DNA of 43,634 nucleotides from positions 1 to 43,634 of the forward strand of contig JAFYIZ010000015.1 of assembly GCA_017538365.1 (NCBI GenBank), in the 5' to 3' direction. Below, piece by piece: positions 16,642-30,446 of this stretch (position 1 is its first letter; each line of letters begins with the position of its first letter). Under the pieces are notes generated by a model. It saw only the letters and a program-made list of their open reading frames with translations. It was not told the DNA's origin and did not search any database. Source of the DNA: a bacterium. Its GTDB lineage: Bacteria; UBP6; UBA1177. A program made the translations under genes and the position numbers.

Positions 16642-16772
16642 CATTGCGCGCCTTCGGGATACCGGAATCTCGGAATCTCGGGATCTCGGCAGGATTTGCG
16701 CGCTTCGGGATCACGAAATCTCGGGATACCGGGATCTCGGCAGGATTTGCGCGCTTCGGGATCACGGCATAT
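16604..16772. repeat. Composite satellite array, left copy (three full 51-bp units plus a partial)
   Basis: Each unit is four octamers of the type CGGGATCA/CGGAATCT followed by a 19-bp segment, such as CGGCAGGATTTGCGCGCTT. The octamer blocks are 16604-16635, 16655-16686 and 16706-16737, with 19-bp segments after each, then two more octamers before the pattern dissolves into the four-helix-bundle gene. The unit length is exactly 51 bp. The array encodes the C-termini of both convergent genes that meet here and lies at the left boundary of the accessory island. Confidence 0.93.
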
Positions 16773-17502
16773 CCCGCGTTCCGTTGCAATCGGGATATCC
16801 TGAGCAACTCCAGAATCCTTTTCCTGAGTTTTTCCCCTTTTTCGCAACGCGCTTTATCATCGGCTTGCCGCACTTCGGACACATCGGTGCATCAGCATCT
16901 ATGCTTTGTTCCGTGCGGTGAGCAAGGCGTTCTGCGGTCAATGCCTCGGTAAAACCGCCTTCTTCCCTGAACGCTGCAAGCCGGTTCGATATTTGTTTGC
17001 GCAGCATCATTATCAGACGCGTGCAGAGAATGATCATGCAGTTTGCTTCAACAATAGAATCATTCGAACAAAGCCACTTATCGAACTTGTGCTTTTGAGC
17101 CAGAATGTGAACAGCACTCAAATGCTGCACATCCTCTTTATAAGTCACCGGCTCCAGATCAATTCTGCTGATTTCCGCATATTCCGCCGATTTTACCGAC
17201 CACGGAATGCTTTCGTGATGCAGAAGCCAGTTGATATAGTCGTTTGCGAGTTCGGCAAGACTGGCGCGTGCCACATCAAAAAGCTTCATTTCGGTTTCTC
17301 TCGACGTATCGTGACGAGAATTGCCTTCGGCGATGTTTGCCGGAACAGAACGGGCTGCCTGCGTCATCTGGTCGTACTGGCGACCGCACGGGTCGTTGCT
17401 GCGGTCAAGATACCGTTGACAAAAATCCTGAGTCGAAAGCTGAATTACGTTTGCCAAAACCCAGGTGTCAAGCCAATAATAACTTAAATTTCCAATTTTC
17501 AT
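16762..17502 (-). CDS. Four-helix-bundle (S23-like) protein with C-terminal zinc ribbon
   Basis: 246 residues. The first 170 or so resemble the S23/'four helix bundle' family: W-L-D-T-W-V-L-A-N-V-I-Q near the start, then Q-M-T-Q-A-A-R-S-V-P-A-N-I-A-E-G-N-S-R, which is its characteristic helix. A C-terminal Cys4 ribbon (C208, C211, C233, C239; C-P-K-C-G and C-S-G-Y-P-D-C) resembles a topoisomerase-type DNA-binding ribbon. Together this matches the 'four helix bundle suffix domain' architecture (TIGR04258, from memory). Nucleic-acid binding is plausible; the role is unknown. The ATG with AGAGG eight bases upstream was chosen over an upstream in-frame start. The last residues and the stop lie in the composite repeat array. 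It sits alone on the minus strand beside the restriction-modification genes. Confidence 0.8.
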   Translation of the reverse strand: MKIGNLSYYWLDTWVLANVIQLSTQDFCQRYLDRSNDPCGRQYDQMTQAARSVPANIAEGNSRHDTSRETEMKLFDVARASLAELANDYINWLLHHESIPWSVKSAEYAEISRIDLEPVTYKEDVQHLSAVHILAQKHKFDKWLCSNDSIVEANCMIILCTRLIMMLRKQISNRLAAFREEGGFTEALTAERLAHRTEQSIDADAPMCPKCGKPMIKRVAKKGKNSGKGFWSCSGYPDCNGTRDMP

Positions 17503-17586
17503 TTCAAACCTCTCATTTTTCAAATTAAAGAAAAAGAACATACTTTGAAAATTTTATTTAAATCAAATTTTAAGTCAAATTTTTCA

Positions 17587-17717: not shown

Positions 17718-18806
17718 ATGGCCGGAAACAGTGATTTAAATAGTGCGAAAAGTGCTAAAAAAGACGAGTTTTATACGCAACTTACCGATATTGAAAAGGA
17801 GCTTCGCCATTACAGGCAGCATTTCAAGGGTAAAACGGTGCTTTGCAACTGCGATGATCCTTTTGAAAGCAATTTCTTCAAGTATTTTGTCTTGAATTTC
17901 AACCGTTTAGGCTTGAAAAAGCTGATTGCGACCTGCTACACGGGTTCACCGATTGCGAATCAGCAGCTTTCGTTGTTTGATATTCTTGGTGAGAGCGCGG
18001 AAAATAGTGAAGAGAAGCCTTATAAAGCGGTTGTGACGACTGTTTACGACAAAACCGGTGACGGCGGCGTGGACATGCTTGATGTGGCTGAACTTTTCAA
18101 GTCAGGCGAAAACGAGCTTACAGAGCTTCAAGGTGACGGAGATTTCCGCTCGCCTGAATGTCTCGCACTTATGAAGGAAGCCGATATTGTGGTGACAAAT
18201 CCGCCGTTTTCGCTGTTTCGGGAATATGTGGCGACACTTATGGAACATCATAAGAAATTTCTTATTATAGGGAATATCAACGCTATAAGTTATAAAGAAG
18301 TTTTCCCTCTATTAATGCAAAACCAAGCGTGGCTTGGTAACGGAATGGGACGCTGGATATCAGGATTCATCGTCCCGAACACTTATGAATTATACGGAAC
18401 AGAAGCTCGAATAAATGATAAGGGCGAACGTATTGTTGCTACAAATAACTGCTTGTGGTTAACAAATCTTGATTTTAAGAAAAGGCACGAGGAGCTGATT
18501 TTAGTAAAACGCTATAATCCTGTTGATTACCCGAAATATGACAATTATGATGCTATTGAAGTTCGAAAAACTGCCGACATACCATGTGATTATGCTGGTG
18601 TAATGGGAGTTCCGATCACATTTTTGGATAAATATAGTCCTGATCAATTTGAGATTTTAGGCTGTTCTGAAAGTGAGGGTAAAGGATTTTCAAATGGTCT
18701 ATGGAATTCTAAATCTGAGGCAAAACAACCACTGATCAATGGACAGCGGCAATACAAGCGAATTTTTATCCGCAACAAGCATCCGGAACAACCGAAGGAG
18801 GATTAG
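17718..18806 (+). CDS. EcoRI-type adenine-specific DNA methyltransferase
   Basis: 362 residues resembling the EcoRI methylase family (PF13651, by recall). It would transfer a methyl group from S-adenosylmethionine to adenine N6 in the host's recognition sites. The catalytic motif is N-P-P-F (residues 161-164, in D-I-V-V-T-N-P-P-F-S). The N-terminus K-K-D-E-F-Y-T-Q and the segment G-K-T-V-L-C-N-C-D-D-P are typical of this branch. The ATG follows GGAG. The stop is separated from the nuclease ATG by one base, a tight operon with methylase first. Recognition of GAATTC is known for EcoRI itself and cannot be assumed here. Confidence 0.9.
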   Translation: MAGNSDLNSAKSAKKDEFYTQLTDIEKELRHYRQHFKGKTVLCNCDDPFESNFFKYFVLNFNRLGLKKLIATCYTGSPIANQQLSLFDILGESAENSEEKPYKAVVTTVYDKTGDGGVDMLDVAELFKSGENELTELQGDGDFRSPECLALMKEADIVVTNPPFSLFREYVATLMEHHKKFLIIGNINAISYKEVFPLLMQNQAWLGNGMGRWISGFIVPNTYELYGTEARINDKGERIVATNNCLWLTNLDFKKRHEELILVKRYNPVDYPKYDNYDAIEVRKTADIPCDYAGVMGVPITFLDKYSPDQFEILGCSESEGKGFSNGLWNSKSEAKQPLINGQRQYKRIFIRNKHPEQPKED

Positions 18807-18807
18807 C

Positions 18808-19914
18808 ATGGAGATAAAAGAATTAAAAGTTACTGTCGGCGAAGTTTGCGAAGGTTACTTCAACGATGCGGAAGAAGGTGTTGTCGGATATGACGGAAAA
18901 CTCGATATCCGCCCGAAATATCAGCGCGAATTCATTTACAAAGATGCGCAGCGCGATGAAGTCATCCGCACGGTTGTGAAAGGCTTGCCGCTGAATGTGA
19001 TTTATTGGTGCAAGGTGAAAAAAGCGGACGGAAGCGACGGTTTTGAGGTGCTTGACGGGCAGCAGCGGACAATTTCGCTCTGCGAATATGTTGACGGGTC
19101 ATTTTCTGTTGACGACAAATATTTCTATAATCTGCCGAAAGATCAAAAGGAAAAAATCCTGAATTATCCGCTTTTTGTCTATGTTTGCGACGGCACTGAC
19201 AGTGAAAAACTGGATTGGTTCAGAATCATCAATATTGCAGGAGTTCAGCTTTCTGATCAGGAGTTGAGAAACGCTGTTTATGCAGGTTCGTGGACATCCG
19301 ACGCAAAACGCTATTTTTCCAAAACCGGATGCGCTGCCGACACGCTGGCAGGCGATTATCTGAAAGGGGCTTCGATTCGTCAGGAATATCTTGAAACTGC
19401 GATTCTGTGGGCGTCTTCCGCTGAAGGTAAAACCATAGAGGCATACATGGCGGAACACCAGAATGATCCTTCAGCAGTTCAGCTTTGGAACTATTTCCGC
19501 TCCGTTATTGACTGGGTTCAGGCGATTTTTCCGAAAACGCGCAAAGAAATGAAGGGTTTGCCGTGGGGAATGTTCTACAATCAGCACGGCAAAAGGACAG
19601 ATCTCGACCCGAAGAAACTGGAAATTGAAATCCAGCGGCTTATGGGCGATGAGGATGTAACAAGAAAATCAGGAATTTATGAATATCTGCTGACCGGCGA
19701 AGAAAAAAAGCTTTCAATCCGCGCTTTCGACCGCCGCGATGCTTTAGCGGCTTATGAAAAACAAAATCACAAATGCGCAATCTGCGGCGAAACATTCGAG
19801 TTCGACGAAATGCATGCCGACCACATCATACCTTGGAGCAAAGGCGGCAAAACAGTGCCGGAAAACTGCCAGATGCTCTGCCGTGACTGCAATCTGAAGA
19901 AAGGTGCGCAGTAA
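18808..19914 (+). CDS. DUF262 domain protein with C-terminal HNH nuclease
   Basis: 368 residues. The N-terminal DUF262 (ParB/GmrS-like) domain carries the hallmark D-G-Q-Q-R-T near residue 83 and an early P-K-Y-Q-R-E-F. The C-terminus is an HNH endonuclease with paired zinc ligands (C323/C326 and C358/C361) around D-H-I-I-P-W-S-K-G-G (D338, H339). The ATG has a textbook AAGGAGG, which overlaps the end of the methylase gene. As the immediate partner of the methylase it is the likely restriction subunit. Because DUF262 domains can hydrolyse nucleotides and sense modified DNA (as in GmrSD), it could instead be modification-dependent. Which applies is not visible from sequence. Confidence 0.85.
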   Translation: MEIKELKVTVGEVCEGYFNDAEEGVVGYDGKLDIRPKYQREFIYKDAQRDEVIRTVVKGLPLNVIYWCKVKKADGSDGFEVLDGQQRTISLCEYVDGSFSVDDKYFYNLPKDQKEKILNYPLFVYVCDGTDSEKLDWFRIINIAGVQLSDQELRNAVYAGSWTSDAKRYFSKTGCAADTLAGDYLKGASIRQEYLETAILWASSAEGKTIEAYMAEHQNDPSAVQLWNYFRSVIDWVQAIFPKTRKEMKGLPWGMFYNQHGKRTDLDPKKLEIEIQRLMGDEDVTRKSGIYEYLLTGEEKKLSIRAFDRRDALAAYEKQNHKCAICGETFEFDEMHADHIIPWSKGGKTVPENCQMLCRDCNLKKGAQ

Positions 19915-24081: not shown

Positions 24082-25836
24082 ATGAGTACAGTAGATTTCA
24101 TTGAAGCCGGAACAAGAAAGAACGTTTCAGAAATTCAGGCTTTGGCTCTTACGATCATGAACGCGCCGGCAACTTCGGCTGTTTCCGTAAAAGATCTTTA
24201 CACAGCGGCGATGCAGCAGACAAGCGCCGTTTTTTCAAACCAGACAATGCCCCAAATCGATGAAAGTTTTCCGGAAAATGCAAACGTTATCTCGAATTTC
24301 ACGGGCGAAGACACCTGCGAAACCGACTGGTTCGTAAAAATAGTTCCGACGACGGAAGAAGCTGTCGCCAATCCCGATTCAGCTGAAGAAAGAGAAGAAC
24401 TTCTCGACATAGTCAGAAGAGCTTCATACGACCTTATTCAGCGCGAAATGTTCATTCATTCCGTTTACCTTACCGACAACCCCGATTTCAACTGTCGTAT
24501 AGACATAACAGCTCCGGTTCAGTTCCCGAAACTGCTTCTTGACGCTGCGATCCACTACTACCCGATCGATGACAAAACCTCGAAAAACTATGCGAAAAGC
24601 CGCAAACTCGATATGCCGTCGATAAGAATCGTATGCTATCCGGAATGGGAAAACGAGGAGTGGCTCTACTGGAAATCCAAAGCTCACAACGAGACAGAAG
24701 ACGAGCCCGAAAGACTTATGATGATCTATGACACTGAAACAAATACCGCTTTCCTGCTTGGCGCGAAAAACTTCTCCGAAATCAGAAAGGCTGTAAAAGT
24801 TCTTGCTTGGAACACTTCGATCGAAGCAACAAACGGTGAATTCCTTCCGGTAAACGGAACGGCTAAAACGATATCGATCAAAAAAACCGTCAACAAAAAG
24901 AGCGACACCTCTTCCGCAACGTTCCTTACGGTTTCCTGCTGCGAAGACGAAAGAAGTTTCTTCGGTCTTAACGTCCATGCTTCGGAAACTCCGGCGAAAG
25001 GCGAAGAAATCACCGTCACGACAAGCGGCGACTCCGGACTTCTTATGATTGCTTCGGCTCAGAACAAGAAGAAATTCCTTGTCAACTTCGGAAGAAACGC
25101 TTTCGGTTCGATTGACAGCGTAATCGCGGGATCGAAAGAGGCTCCGCAGATCATTTCCGCTGAAAATCTCGCTCTCGTAAAGACCGCGGAAGACAAAAAA
25201 GAGTTCCTTCTCAACCCGATGCTTTCCCCGAACGCGAAAATCCACACTCAGCTCAAACAGGAAGACAAGGATTTCCCGATGCCTGAATACGTAGTTCTCA
25301 TGGTAAACGACGGAAGCCTTCCTCCCGTAACTATGATAAAAGATGCAGACCTCATGACTTCGATGTGGTTCTCATACACCACCGAATGTGACTGCTGCTC
25401 CGATTCCGAAGTAATTCCGAGCGGAAATGCAGACGCAACATGGGAAGTAAACAAAGAAATCGAAATTTTCAACAAAATCGCGAAAAGAGGCAAATTCAAA
25501 CTTATCGTTGTAAATACAGCACCTTACAGCGAAAGCACACGCGACTCGCTTGCAGACGAGATCATCCTTTCGGTCTACACGAAAATCGCAAGAAACGAGA
25601 TCAGCTGGAAAGAATGGAAAGCTCTTCCTGGCTTCAACCTTCCGGACAAAGGAACTTTCAAGAACGTCAAGAAGGATTTCGACACAGTTTACGACACTCT
25701 GAAGTTCTCTGCTGATCCGATCTACAAAGATCTGCTCCGCGATTCGCTTGAAATGAAGATCGAATACTTGAGAACGATCGACGCTCCGCAGACTCTCATC
25801 GCTCCTTTCTACAAAATACTTGCAAAACTTGTCTAA
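24082..25836 (+). CDS. Possible PEP carboxykinase-like protein lacking the P-loop
   Basis: 584 residues, no signal peptide. I do not recognise a family with certainty. The segment around residues 125-245 can be laid on ATP-type phosphoenolpyruvate carboxykinase: V-Y-L-T-D-N-P-D-F-N-C-R-I-D-I-T-A for the 'vyvvDa..Gadp..rlkVRvite' strand, I-R-I-V-C-Y-P-E-W-E-N for 'iinaPefka', and F-L-L-G-A-K-N-F-S-E-I-R-K-A for 'LIGGTeYaGEmKKS'. The nucleotide-binding G-L-S-G-T-G-K-T-T loop is not found where it should follow, so an active carboxykinase is unlikely. The alignment was made by eye and could be wrong. The ATG follows GGGAG. It has its own promoter and probably leads the genes to 28607. Confidence 0.6.
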   Translation: MSTVDFIEAGTRKNVSEIQALALTIMNAPATSAVSVKDLYTAAMQQTSAVFSNQTMPQIDESFPENANVISNFTGEDTCETDWFVKIVPTTEEAVANPDSAEEREELLDIVRRASYDLIQREMFIHSVYLTDNPDFNCRIDITAPVQFPKLLLDAAIHYYPIDDKTSKNYAKSRKLDMPSIRIVCYPEWENEEWLYWKSKAHNETEDEPERLMMIYDTETNTAFLLGAKNFSEIRKAVKVLAWNTSIEATNGEFLPVNGTAKTISIKKTVNKKSDTSSATFLTVSCCEDERSFFGLNVHASETPAKGEEITVTTSGDSGLLMIASAQNKKKFLVNFGRNAFGSIDSVIAGSKEAPQIISAENLALVKTAEDKKEFLLNPMLSPNAKIHTQLKQEDKDFPMPEYVVLMVNDGSLPPVTMIKDADLMTSMWFSYTTECDCCSDSEVIPSGNADATWEVNKEIEIFNKIAKRGKFKLIVVNTAPYSESTRDSLADEIILSVYTKIARNEISWKEWKALPGFNLPDKGTFKNVKKDFDTVYDTLKFSADPIYKDLLRDSLEMKIEYLRTIDAPQTLIAPFYKILAKLV

Positions 25837-25879: not shown

Positions 25880-26692
25880 ATGAAAGACATTTCACTTTTA
25901 GAGAAAATTTTAAGTAAATTTCTCTCGCATGAACAAATTGCGGCTCTGACTGAAGAAATCTCTAAAGGGGTATCTTTAGTCAACGGCATCATTGATAAAA
26001 ACGAAAAAGTAAAGGCAACAAAAGAGCTTGTCGTCAGGACATTCAAGTCGACAGACAGAATGATCGCCCAGTCAGACAAAATTCCAGCGACCTTCAAACT
26101 TTTTTACGACACGGCAAAAGTCAAACTCCATGATCTTCTTGAACCGATAATCACCGGCATGGTTATGGAAAACGACTTTTCAGAACTCGACGACATTCCG
26201 GATGTCAAAAAATCCGACAACACTCCGAAACAGGGAAATACCGAAAGGTTTCAGGGAAACACCAATAACAATCCGCAGCAAAACGGCGGTGAGCAGGGCG
26301 GCAGACGCAGAAGAAACCGCAGACACGGACGCAACAGAAACAACAACCAATACCAGAACCAGAATCAGGAACAGAAACCCGAATCTGTACAAACGGTACC
26401 TGAAACAACTCTGAAACCGGAAACAAAACCAGAACCGAAACCGGAAATGAAACCCGCCCCGAAACCTGAACCCAAACAGGAACCGAAGCCTGAGACCTCT
26501 CTGCCATCTGAAAAACCGGCTAAACCGGAAAGAAGAGGCAGAACTGCAAAAAAACCGGCGGAAACACCGGAACCCAAACCTACCCATAAACCGGAACCCA
26601 AACCTGTAGAGACGTCACCTGAGACGTCTCCAGCAAAAAAACCGGCAAGAAGAGGCAGAACACCAAGAAAACCGAAAGAAATAAACGAATAA
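25880..26692 (+). CDS. Small helical domain fused to basic and Pro/Lys/Glu-rich disordered tail
   Basis: 270 residues. Residues 1-110 form a compact helical domain of no recognised family. After that comes low complexity: an Asn/Gln-rich stretch, an arginine patch (R-R-R-R-N-R-R-H-G-R-N-R-N-N-N) near residue 140, and repeated K-P-E-P-K-P-type motifs with three R-R-G-R-T-like basic boxes. The basic boxes resemble those of RNA- or DNA-binding tails, so nucleic-acid binding is a reasonable inference but unproved. The start follows TTGAGG. It ends one base before the ATG of the PBP4 gene, which lacks its own ribosome-binding site, so translation is probably coupled. Confidence 0.7.
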   Translation: MKDISLLEKILSKFLSHEQIAALTEEISKGVSLVNGIIDKNEKVKATKELVVRTFKSTDRMIAQSDKIPATFKLFYDTAKVKLHDLLEPIITGMVMENDFSELDDIPDVKKSDNTPKQGNTERFQGNTNNNPQQNGGEQGGRRRRNRRHGRNRNNNQYQNQNQEQKPESVQTVPETTLKPETKPEPKPEMKPAPKPEPKQEPKPETSLPSEKPAKPERRGRTAKKPAETPEPKPTHKPEPKPVETSPETSPAKKPARRGRTPRKPKEINE

Positions 26693-26693
26693 A

Positions 26694-28064
26694 ATGAAAA
26701 AATTTTTTTTTGTTTTTTTAGCTCTTTTTTATTCTGTTGCCTACGCCGAAACAACTCCCGCTTTCGATTTTTCACCCGTTTCCGAAGAGAATATTTCGCT
26801 TGTCCTTTACGACACTGAAACCCAGAAGGATGTTCTCAGCATAAACGCCGACAAGCCGTTTTTATATGCTTCAAACCTCAAACTTCTCACTTCGGCAGTC
26901 GCTTTGAAACAGTTGGGCGGCGGATTCAAATTCCTCACCATGTTTTCATTCGATAAAGAAAGCGGAACTCTTCACATTAAAGCTGGCGGCGATCCCGAAA
27001 TGGTCATCGAAAAACTCTGGGTCGTCGCATCCGACCTTAAAAGACTCGGCGTAAAAGGGATAAAAAAAGTTTCTGTCGATGATTTTTTGTACGGAAAAAA
27101 GAGCGCTCTCACGGCAGAAAGCGGTGACAAGGGCGACAACGGATACCTGGCTTTTATCTCGCCTCTCAGCCTGAACTACAACGCAATAGCGATATTCGTA
27201 AAAGCGCGCGAAGCAACACAGCCGGTTGAAATCACTCTTTCGGCTCCGAGCTCATACTTTTCGATAAAAAACACCGCTACAGGAACTCCCGACGGCAACA
27301 ACCAGCTCGTAGTCGGGGCGCAGAAAGCGGGCAATCAGACCGAAATCGTCGTAAAAGGCTCGCTCGGTGCGGCAAGAACGAAACACGAAGCGGTATTTAA
27401 AAGAGTCGCCGATCCGACACGCTACTACATTGTGACGCTGCTCAATCTCATGGGCGAAAACGAAGAGGCCCCGATCGAACGCACACATCTTGAAGATTCG
27501 TTTTTTACTGCAAAAGAGCGGATAAACTTCACCTACAAAAGCAATCCGCTGCGCGACATAATCCGCACGATGAACCTCTACTCTTCTAATTTCATTGCCG
27601 ACAGCCTGCAATTCTATCTTGGCGCGACCCTCCGCGGAGATGTCAAACAAGGTGTCGAAATTCTTAAAGAATTCGCACAAAAAGAACTTAATGAAACGAT
27701 CGACATTGTAAACGGCAGCGGGCTTGGCAACGACAAAAACTATCTTACCGGTAATTTTTACATCAAACTCTTGAAACTGGTTTTTTCAGATTACTACGGC
27801 AGTATCGACTTTTTCTCGTCCCTTCCTGTCATGGGCGAAGACGGAACTTTGAAACGTGCGAATACGAGCAGCGAAAATTCGGGATTTGTCCGCGGCAAAA
27901 CGGGTTCTCTAACAGGCGTTGCGGCACTTTCGGGCGTCATGAAGGCAAAAAGCGGCAAACTTTACCTTTTCGCTTTCGCGATAAACGGATTTCCTTCAAA
28001 AAGTTTCAAACCTATGTGGGCTCTCCGCGATCGGGTCATGAACGAAATCTGGGAGAAATATTAA
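26694..28064 (+). CDS. dacB: D-alanyl-D-alanine carboxypeptidase/endopeptidase (PBP4, peptidase S13)
   Basis: Periplasmic peptidoglycan hydrolase that trims or opens peptide cross-links. 456 residues with a signal peptide ending A-Y-A-E near residue 19. Penicillin-binding motifs: S-N-L-K (S60-K63, in Y-A-S-N-L-K-L-L-T-S), S-S-N (297-299, in N-L-Y-S-S-N-F-I-A) and K-T-G (about 402, in G-K-T-G-S-L-T-G-V-A). The large insert between the first and second motifs is typical of class C PBP4. It is an interesting companion for the preceding disordered basic protein, but no mechanistic link is known to me. Confidence 0.93.
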   Translation: MKKFFFVFLALFYSVAYAETTPAFDFSPVSEENISLVLYDTETQKDVLSINADKPFLYASNLKLLTSAVALKQLGGGFKFLTMFSFDKESGTLHIKAGGDPEMVIEKLWVVASDLKRLGVKGIKKVSVDDFLYGKKSALTAESGDKGDNGYLAFISPLSLNYNAIAIFVKAREATQPVEITLSAPSSYFSIKNTATGTPDGNNQLVVGAQKAGNQTEIVVKGSLGAARTKHEAVFKRVADPTRYYIVTLLNLMGENEEAPIERTHLEDSFFTAKERINFTYKSNPLRDIIRTMNLYSSNFIADSLQFYLGATLRGDVKQGVEILKEFAQKELNETIDIVNGSGLGNDKNYLTGNFYIKLLKLVFSDYYGSIDFFSSLPVMGEDGTLKRANTSSENSGFVRGKTGSLTGVAALSGVMKAKSGKLYLFAFAINGFPSKSFKPMWALRDRVMNEIWEKY

Positions 28065-28067
28065 AAT

Positions 28068-28607
28068 ATGCTGATACATTCAGCTCAACACATCACCTAT
28101 CTGGGAAGACACCTCAAAATCAACTCACCTTCCGAATTTTCAAGCGATTCAACAATACTCGTTCTGACAAAAAACATAAAGATTCCGTTCAACGTCAAAG
28201 AAAAAACGAGAATAACTTCAGAAGAGATCGCCAAATCGACAGGACTCAGAAAATTTCTAAAGCTTTCGGAAGGAACCACTGTAAAAGTCGGCAGTTTTGA
28301 AATCAGAATGGCTGAAATCACCGAAGACAAAAGCAAATTCAATTTCTTTATAAACCAAGAGCTTTACTTTATGACGTTCGTTCCCGAAATATACTTCCCT
28401 TTTCAGGAGAATTTGACTCTGCTCATTCAGACAGATTCCGATTATTTTCAGGAGGACGATTTCGAAAAAATTCAGGCTTTTATCTCCAAAAGCCATCCTG
28501 CAAAAACAGTAATTTCCGGAAATTATTCGGAAAAATGGTTTTCTGCTTTTAAAAACAGAAAAAATATCGCCGTCCGCAACGAAATATCACAGCAGAGCAT
28601 ATTCTGA
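28068..28607 (+). CDS. Hypothetical protein (179 aa)
   Basis: Starts three bases after the PBP4 stop and is surely in the same operon. There is no signal peptide, membrane helix or cysteine pair. The composition is rich in Lys, Phe and Ile with predicted alternating strands (I-L-V-L-T-K-N-I-K-I-P-F-N-V, T-V-K-V-G-S-F-E-I-R-M-A-E-I). One could read strand pairs followed by Y-F-M-T-F-V-P-E-I-Y-F-P as a fragment of a metallo-beta-lactamase-like fold, but no histidine cluster supports that. No function assigned. Confidence 0.7.
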   Translation: MLIHSAQHITYLGRHLKINSPSEFSSDSTILVLTKNIKIPFNVKEKTRITSEEIAKSTGLRKFLKLSEGTTVKVGSFEIRMAEITEDKSKFNFFINQELYFMTFVPEIYFPFQENLTLLIQTDSDYFQEDDFEKIQAFISKSHPAKTVISGNYSEKWFSAFKNRKNIAVRNEISQQSIF

Positions 28608-28679: not shown

Positions 28680-30446
28680 ATGAAAAAGTTATCAATTTGT
28701 CTAATCTGCTTTTTCTTATTCTTCGGGTTTGTTTCCTGTGTTTCAGATGATGATGGAACTGACACGTCTGTTTCAGGCGACACTGACAAACCTGACACTG
28801 CCGATACTGGTTCTGGAGATACAGGTTCCGGAGATAACGATTCAAGCGACAGCGGAAGCGGCGACAAAACTGATACGGCCGATTCAACCGATACTAATAA
28901 TCCTGAAGATCCTTACGATACCAACGAATGTATCTGCGGCGCCGGAGACCTTGATGACGACGGCGACGGAATCCCGAACAGTGTCGAAACATGTGATGAT
29001 GCCGACGGAGATTCTCTGCCGAACTGCATGGATACAGACAACGACGGTGACGGTATTCCTGACAACATTGAATGTCCTGAACAACCTTGCAGAGATACAG
29101 ACGGAGACGGAATCCCCGACTTTTTAGACAGAGACAGCGATAACGACGGACTTTCCGACAAAAAGGAGAAAGAACGCGGCACCGACCCGTGCAAAATAGA
29201 TACAGACGGCGATGGTGACGACGATATGGCTGAAATAGCTTTCAACACAGATCCGCTCGACGACAGCAGCCACGTTCCTTCAGGAAGCATGTATGTTGTT
29301 CTGCCTTACAACGCAAACTGGAATGCAAGCAGAAAATGGGAATTTGACACCGACATTTCAAAAATCGATGTCGCTTTCATGCTCGACCTCTCCGGCTCGA
29401 TGGAAGAGGAACAGCAGAACCTTAAAGACAAAATTAAAACTGACGTCGTCGAGAAAATAGCAACTTTGAATGAAGGAACGCTTGACGCAGCTTATGCTTT
29501 TGTCCATTTTATGGATTTCGACAACGATATGAGCAGAGTTTACAAAGTTGACACTCTCGTTACGAAAGATATTGATGAACTTAAAGCTGCAATTGATTCT
29601 ACACCGACACCGTACGGCGGAACAGAATGCGACTGGCTTGTTCTTTATGCTGCCACAACAAGCGAAGACATTTACGGGCCGTGTTCAACAGACTCTGAAT
29701 CACCTATTTTCCCGGGTCTTACATCAGAAAAGGCGACATGCAACATTCCGCTTCCCGACTGCACCGGTCGTGAAGGTGACCGCGCAGGACTCTGCTTCCG
29801 TGACAAGGCAATGCCGATTCTCATTATAATAACCGACGAACCCCCGACAGACACTAATATGCCGCCAGTCAACGATAAAGCTTCTAAGTTGGCTCTCCAA
29901 ACTATGAGCGCTCAAAATGCTAAATTTATCGGAATAGACTCATCCAGCACAAGTGGCAACAACAATATTTCCAACTTTTTCGAAACAGTTTCAAAAGCCA
30001 CAGGAACACTTGATGCAAACGGCAAATCTTTCAACTTTACAGTCGGCAACGATGCGGTTGCGGCTGACGGAAAAGCTATGAGCGAAAAAATCGGCGAAGC
30101 AATCGAATCACTCACCTCTTTCGTTCAGATGGATGTCTGGGTTGCAGGAAACTCGAACGAGCTCTGCAATGGAACGGATACTAGCGTTGCAAACTTCATC
30201 CTAGGCGGAATTCCCATTAAGGCAGAACCTCCTGAAGGAGCCCAAATCGACACGGCAAATATGAAGTTCCGCGCTGTAAATCCCGGAACCATTGTAACTT
30301 TCGACGTTCAGTTCCACAATGACTTCTGCCCGAACCTGACAAACGCACCCGTTCTTTACAAAGCCGAAGCAATGGTTTTAGGTGAAGGCGCATATCTTTC
30401 CAAAAAAGAAGTTCAGGTCATCGTTCCCGAAACCGAAAGCAAATAA
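28680..30446 (+). CDS. Lipoprotein with thrombospondin type-3 repeats and VWA domain
   Basis: 588 residues, probably surface-exposed. A lipobox (F-V-S-C, Cys20) is followed by an acidic Asp/Ser/Gly/Thr linker to about residue 75. Several calcium-binding TSP3-like repeats come next ([31 protein letters not shown]). A von Willebrand factor A domain has a complete-looking metal-ion-dependent adhesion site: D-x-S-x-S (D236, S238, S240), a G-G-T-E segment and I-T-D-E-P (D386). A beta-type C-terminal domain ends the protein. Roles in adhesion or envelope structure fit the family. It has its own promoter. This architecture is common in Myxococcota-like predatory or gut lineages. Confidence 0.92.

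Follow-up and report, generated by a model that had tools for sequence, protein, structure and literature searches.

Pseudoenzymes (e.g. pseudokinases) are well known: their sequence is conserved although catalytic residues have been lost, and the cell also has an active relative. For the canonical ATP-dependent PEP carboxykinase (PEPCK) of Escherichia coli (i.e. PckA; PF01293, PDB 1AYL/1AQ2), single residues serve as Mn ligands or oxaloacetate binders, with R65, Y207 and H232 being substrate/metal residues. ATP-, GTP- and PPi-dependent forms of PEPCK are described in a review of the PEP-pyruvate-oxaloacetate node (PMC8100219), the available part of which describes no inactive relative. A literature search confined to open-licence papers gave, among the papers listed, no case of a PEPCK pseudoenzyme or PEPCK-like family of this kind.

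The stretch of DNA analysed here (i.e. the window) spans 43,634 nucleotides of contig JAFYIZ010000015.1 from a UBP6 bacterium and carries a gene for a PEPCK-like protein. As compared to canonical ATP-PEPCK, including the copy encoded in the same genome (L020), this protein would share the common fold and motif order but differs in giving no significant direct profile match and in lacking the R-loop, P-loop and lid signatures. The original prediction was of a catalytically dead, PEPCK-like protein that had been repurposed, and this is borne out by homology via intermediates, loss of the signatures, purifying selection and the presence of a separate canonical PEPCK. Catalytic residues have been lost relative to intact relatives whilst the gene is under purifying selection and, judged from its sequence, the window protein is very probably a PEPCK-fold pseudoenzyme.

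An intact PEPCK-like gene in UBP6

The open reading frame at 24082-25836 (+) is intact, with an ATG at 24082 and a stop at 25836, and encodes 584 aa. The protein is acidic (net charge -23) and has no strongly hydrophobic segment, and presumably no signal or membrane segment. In a phylum-wide search, homologues of this putative pseudoenzyme were detected in 17/28 UBP6 genomes, comprising 16 of the 19 genomes from the family of the window (f1) and the one genome of a sister family (f2), with none in the five genomes of f3 or the three of f4. The f1 genomes without the gene were G005 and G010, which are 72-77% complete, and G018, which is 91% complete. No internal stop was present in any of the 16 f1 copies, all from separate assemblies. 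Among named records, the close relatives of the window genome were MAGs from rumen and gut; two of these carried the label UBP6 (UBA1177 and UBA1196) and two that of 'uncultured Spirochaetales'. Two scans of viral contigs found no relative, and a PADLOC search with the window protein gave no match. A promoter scan carried no weight (9 observed versus 11.6 expected from shuffles).

Homology to PEPCK through intermediates

No match was obtained for the window protein in Pfam, NCBIfam or PDB sequences, and PF01293 was absent at E ≤ 1. Comparisons of the protein or its profile with canonical ATP-PEPCK profiles gave E-values of 0.04, 0.1 and 0.058, none of which is significant, and profile A1 had no match among PDB sequences. 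With no significant direct match to canonical PEPCK, the homology of the window protein to PEPCK rests on intermediates. The f1 profile matched a divergent, P-loop-bearing PEPCK clade of other phyla with an hhalign E-value of 2e-52, as compared to 0.09-0.46 for five column-shuffled controls and 0.35 for a reversed control. This divergent clade in turn matched canonical PEPCK at E 1.3e-17 (hhalign). A second intermediate was the f2 protein, L017, from the same order, which aligned with the window protein over the full length at 35% identity (E 5e-107). L017 also matched the NCBIfam PEPCK model NF006821 over residues 28-568 (E 1.7e-22, below the model cut-off), and with PF01293 it fell just short of the cut-off (E 7.8e-6); against PDB sequences, its sole match when used alone was a chance ribosomal one (E 0.73). 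NF006821 was similarly the best curated name for L018 and L019, the two members of the divergent clade that were scanned, and was again below its cut-off.

A tree of 27 proteins, in which the trait columns were kept, grouped f1 with L017 (100/100), then these with the f131 group (100/98) and then with the rest of the divergent clade, canonical PEPCK standing apart. Members of the divergent clade share full-length collinear homology and a length class with the window protein, and the f131 group (L030) additionally shares a PEWxNxxWxxW segment. At the level of sequence, these comparisons show the window protein to descend from the divergent ATP-PEPCK clade, with homology to the PEPCK superfamily being established via intermediates. 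The resemblance noted originally is hence beyond chance, though through intermediates only (hhalign E 2e-52 against at least 0.09 for controls, together with L017). The HMM-HMM comparison proposed as a check failed for direct canonical profiles (E 0.04-0.1) and succeeded via the divergent clade (E 2e-52, then 1.3e-17). A suggested link to DUF4914 was not upheld, as this model was absent from the Pfam matches (E ≤ 1) of the window protein, L014, L015, L017, L018 and L019.

Structure prediction with AlphaFold gave poor models both for 13 congeneric sequences (pLDDT 36.4) and for the C-terminal 380 residues of 12 congeneric sequences (pLDDT 40.9). A Foldseek search with the first of these poor models produced 111 matches, of which none was at E ≤ 0.001; PEPCK 1aq2 appeared at rank 23 with an E-value of 0.7, which is not evidence. 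A separate feature of the intact f131 protein (L030, L075 3409-5649) is a long low-complexity insert of TTAPSxIDQN repeats located just before the P-loop.

Loss of the active site

Active-site residues were compared at 15 columns taken from the canonical PEPCK of the window genome, with E. coli numbering counted along the 1aq2 chain. All 25 of the full-length divergent-clade proteins examined outside UBP6 (i.e. L022-L030, L097-L101 and L109-L119, with the matches of one set of relatives listed to E 1e-20 only) read RYKKHGSGGKSDDER at these columns, which equals canonical PEPCK except for an S in place of T255. The proteins left out of this count were L032-L034, which the tree places with canonical PEPCK (L034 having an M at K213); L018 and L019, being the same genes as L022 and L023; L102-L104, which are pieces of counted genes; L031 (G285), a C-terminal fragment without the P-loop half; and weak partial matches without loci. 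The PEPCK-like L031 fragment, of 261 aa, comes from another lineage, a relative of which (L029) carries the full gene, and is possibly a separate truncation.

L017 reads LCKKNGSGGKSDDER, having lost R65, Y207 and H232 whilst keeping the nucleotide site (i.e. the P-loop), D268-D269, E282 and R333. The window protein reads ENRKNSCEERSDSGK and differs from the divergent clade at 12 of the 15 columns. Of the ATP-PEPCK substrate/metal residues R65, Y207, K213, H232, D269 and R333, only K213 is retained, as K236 (24787-24789, +), and in the alignment this was the sole active-site residue kept throughout the six f1 lineages.

All three PEPCK active-site loops (i.e. the R-loop, P-loop and omega-loop lid) have been remade in the window protein, as judged by alignment. 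In the former R-loop or substrate loop (residues 75-90; 24304-24351, +), the equivalent of R65 is E80, and this position is E, D, T or S in the six f1 lineages versus R in 25/25 outside relatives. The H232 position is occupied by N258 (24853-24855, +), with N or S in f1, N in L017 and H in all other rows. The former P-loop (residues 285-292; 24934-24957, +) reads SCCEDERS in place of the GLSG[ST]GKS of relatives, and the P-loop glycines are gone throughout f1 except for scattered ones, with E or D at the G253 position in 6/6 lineages and a basic residue (R or K) at the K254 position. At the kinase-2 position, D268-D269 correspond to D317-S318 (25030-25035, +); across the six lineages, D268 is D or N and D269 has become S in all. 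The window protein accordingly has SCCEDERS and DS where ATP-PEPCK has the P-loop GLSGTGKT and the kinase-2 DD. Other changes were G337 at the E282 position (25090-25092, +; 1aq2 numbering) and K386 at the R333 position (25237-25239, +).

No Walker A motif was found in any of the 16 f1 copies, whether at the P-loop site or elsewhere in the protein, whilst L017 has one; the lack of the kinase P-loop noted originally is thereby confirmed. One candidate, NGTAKT at residues 258-263, was rejected as a Walker A since it aligns with the H232 region and not with the P-loop. A new motif, C436-x-C438-C439 (25387-25398, +), is present on the shortened former omega-loop lid and corresponds approximately to E. 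coli residues 391-394 in the alignment. This motif was conserved as C[DE]CC in 16/16 f1 copies and was absent in L017.

Coexistence with canonical PEPCK

The window genome also carries a canonical ATP-PEPCK (L020, 565 bits), and no GTP-PEPCK was found in this genome. Canonical PEPCK was detected in 27/28 UBP6 genomes, including every genome with the divergent gene. L017 resembles the window protein both in coexisting with a canonical enzyme (L051) and in the loss of R65, Y207 and H232, but differs in the retained P-loop, D268-D269, E282 and R333, in having no CxCC and in its gene neighbourhood (see below). Outside UBP6, the divergent clade differs from the window protein in keeping 15/15 active-site residues and in being the sole PF01293 protein, the intact divergent copy having no second PEPCK of this family beside it in 13/13 genomes tested (9 + 4; the 11 genomes of L109-L119 were not among these), whereas the window protein coexists with canonical PEPCK. 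GTP-PEPCK was found in 0/12 genomes tested, a set that excludes G290-G293. On the simplest reading, the divergent protein would carry out the PEPCK reaction in genomes that have no other PEPCK, and the divergent gene would have been free to change in UBP6 because the canonical enzyme is present.

Purifying selection on the remade protein

Of 12 within-genus comparisons with the window gene, 11 gave dN/dS values of 0.037-0.125 and one (L069) was not computable. When examined by block, values of 0.004-0.083 were obtained in every block tested, including the P-loop remnant (0.038 over residues 280-300), the lid (0.035) and the R-loop (0.004). Canonical PEPCK of the same genus gave similar values (0.019-0.075, five comparisons). 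The PEPCK-like gene, with a dN/dS of 0.04-0.13, is therefore no pseudogene. The 15 active-site columns were all invariant in 14 intact relatives, in which 53/523 columns were invariant overall, versus only 3/15 in f1, in which the overall figure was 177/576. Low dN/dS combined with 3/15 invariant columns at the old site indicates that the protein has been kept but that, across f1, selection no longer guards the old active site in particular. Loss of active-site residues from a sequence that is nevertheless held by selection makes a non-enzymatic job probable.

Conserved linkage to a PBP4 gene

Gaps of 43, 1 and 3 bases separate the PEPCK-like gene and the next three genes, all on the forward strand. 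The first of these (25880-26692, +) encodes a 270-aa protein with a conserved helical-looking N-terminal domain, an LDDIPDV motif, an Arg-rich and KPEP-rich tail and a net charge of +13. This protein has no family match at curated cut-offs and carries a RRRRNRRHGRNRN tail; in the genus of the window, the tail is Arg-rich. The second gene (26694-28064, +) encodes a PBP4-type D-Ala-D-Ala carboxypeptidase (S13) with SxxK, SxN and KTG motifs (PF02113, E 1.9e-53; TIGR00666). The third (28068-28607, +) encodes a 179-aa protein with no assigned family, and is the conserved fourth gene of the cluster. All three were linked to the PEPCK-like gene in 14 of the 15 f1 loci examined, consisting of 12/12 congeneric loci and those of two other genera (L071 and L072); the locus from a third genus (L073) meets a contig end. 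Short gaps and conserved linkage support the earlier proposal that the PEPCK-like gene heads an operon with a basic disordered protein and PBP4. No linkage to the cluster of the 270-aa basic protein, PBP4 and 179-aa protein was observed for the f2 (L074) or f131 (L075) loci. In L071 (9500-10100) and L072 (9914-10510), a gene for a TetR-like regulator directly follows the PEPCK-like gene and precedes that of the basic protein, a position at which the window has none; the L072 regulator matched TetR_N at E 1.4e-16 and that of L071 was judged by eye.

Proposed function and alternatives

We consider it likely that the window protein is a pseudoenzyme that arose by stepwise loss and that acts by binding. 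The sequences show that the ancestor common to f1 and f2 had already lost R65, Y207 and H232. Subsequently, f1 lost the P-loop, D269, E282 and R333, with shortening of the lid and gain of CxCC at this site, under purifying selection that is ongoing. The intermediate state, with the P-loop kept and the substrate site lost, is known from one genome (i.e. that of L017). The window protein would now neither bind ATP in the manner of a P-loop nor decarboxylate oxaloacetate, a reaction that the canonical PEPCK would cover, and would instead serve as a binding protein, either a scaffold or a sensor, encoded in an operon that contains PBP4. The most likely candidate for a binding partner is the adjoining Arg-rich 270-aa protein, which is put forward tentatively. 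The lid cysteines (C436, C438 and C439), perhaps with K236, could form a putative metal or thiol-redox site near the old nucleotide pocket, an assignment that is similarly speculative. It is somewhat doubtful that every element of the fullest account holds together, i.e. that the fold of a central-metabolic enzyme was converted stepwise for use in a non-catalytic protein encoded by a cell-wall operon, with three remade loops, a cysteine metal/redox site on the lid and an extant intermediate in the sister family.

The whole path is visible in living lineages, consisting of 25 intact relatives, one intermediate and 16 copies without the nucleotide site and with the cysteines. This provides an ordered, testable case of how an enzyme turns into a non-enzyme when its reaction is taken care of by another gene. 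Additionally, current family models are a poor fit to the divergent intact clade, whose members are the only PF01293 proteins in 13/13 genomes tested.

Residual or altered chemistry may have persisted, because K213 is retained, the D268 position carries D or N and that of K254 a basic residue. One alternative is that the protein remains an enzyme, its old cleft having acquired new chemistry; it might, for example, act as a nucleotide-independent lyase or transferase through K236, the basic residue at K254 and a metal bound by CxCC. The invariant K213 equivalent, the R or K at K254 and S at D269 in all six lineages, the C[DE]CC motif in 16/16 f1 copies and the purifying selection acting on the altered loops within the genus are all consistent with such a function. 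However, invariance at only 3/15 old-site columns against 177/576 overall is unlike an active centre, and Pfam and NCBIfam recognise no new catalytic motif, such that this alternative is regarded as improbable.

Degenerate binding of a nucleotide or metabolite, by a metabolite sensor controlling cell-wall genes, would fit the basic residue at K254, the D or N at D268 and the link to PBP4, and the complete P-loop of L017 implies that nucleotide binding was lost late. Against this are the disappearance of most P-loop glycines, the E or D at G253 in 6/6 lineages and the loss of R333 and R65, which make a sensor of this type very improbable. A decaying pseudogene or assembly artefact, as might be suspected from the loss of nearly all catalytic residues, is refuted by the uninterrupted reading frames of 16/16 f1 copies in separate assemblies and by dN/dS values of 0.04-0.13 (0.004-0.083 by block). 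An unrelated fold with a chance likeness to PEPCK, for which the missing direct match to canonical PEPCK and the poor predicted models (pLDDT 36.4 and 40.9) might speak, is highly improbable: the alignment via L017 and the P-loop clade is full-length and collinear, and shuffled controls came nowhere near its E-values.

Other genes in the window

Beside the cluster, a gene at 28680-30446 (+) encodes a protein that has TSP3 repeats of the bacterial type and weakly matches VWA. A restriction-modification pair is located at 17718-19914 (+), in which an EcoRI-type adenine methylase (PF13651, E 2e-149) overlaps a GmrSD_N/HNH type II restriction enzyme. The gene at 16762-17541 (-) encodes a 259-aa protein of unusual make-up, in which a domain of 23S rRNA intervening-sequence proteins is fused with a zinc ribbon of the topoisomerase type.
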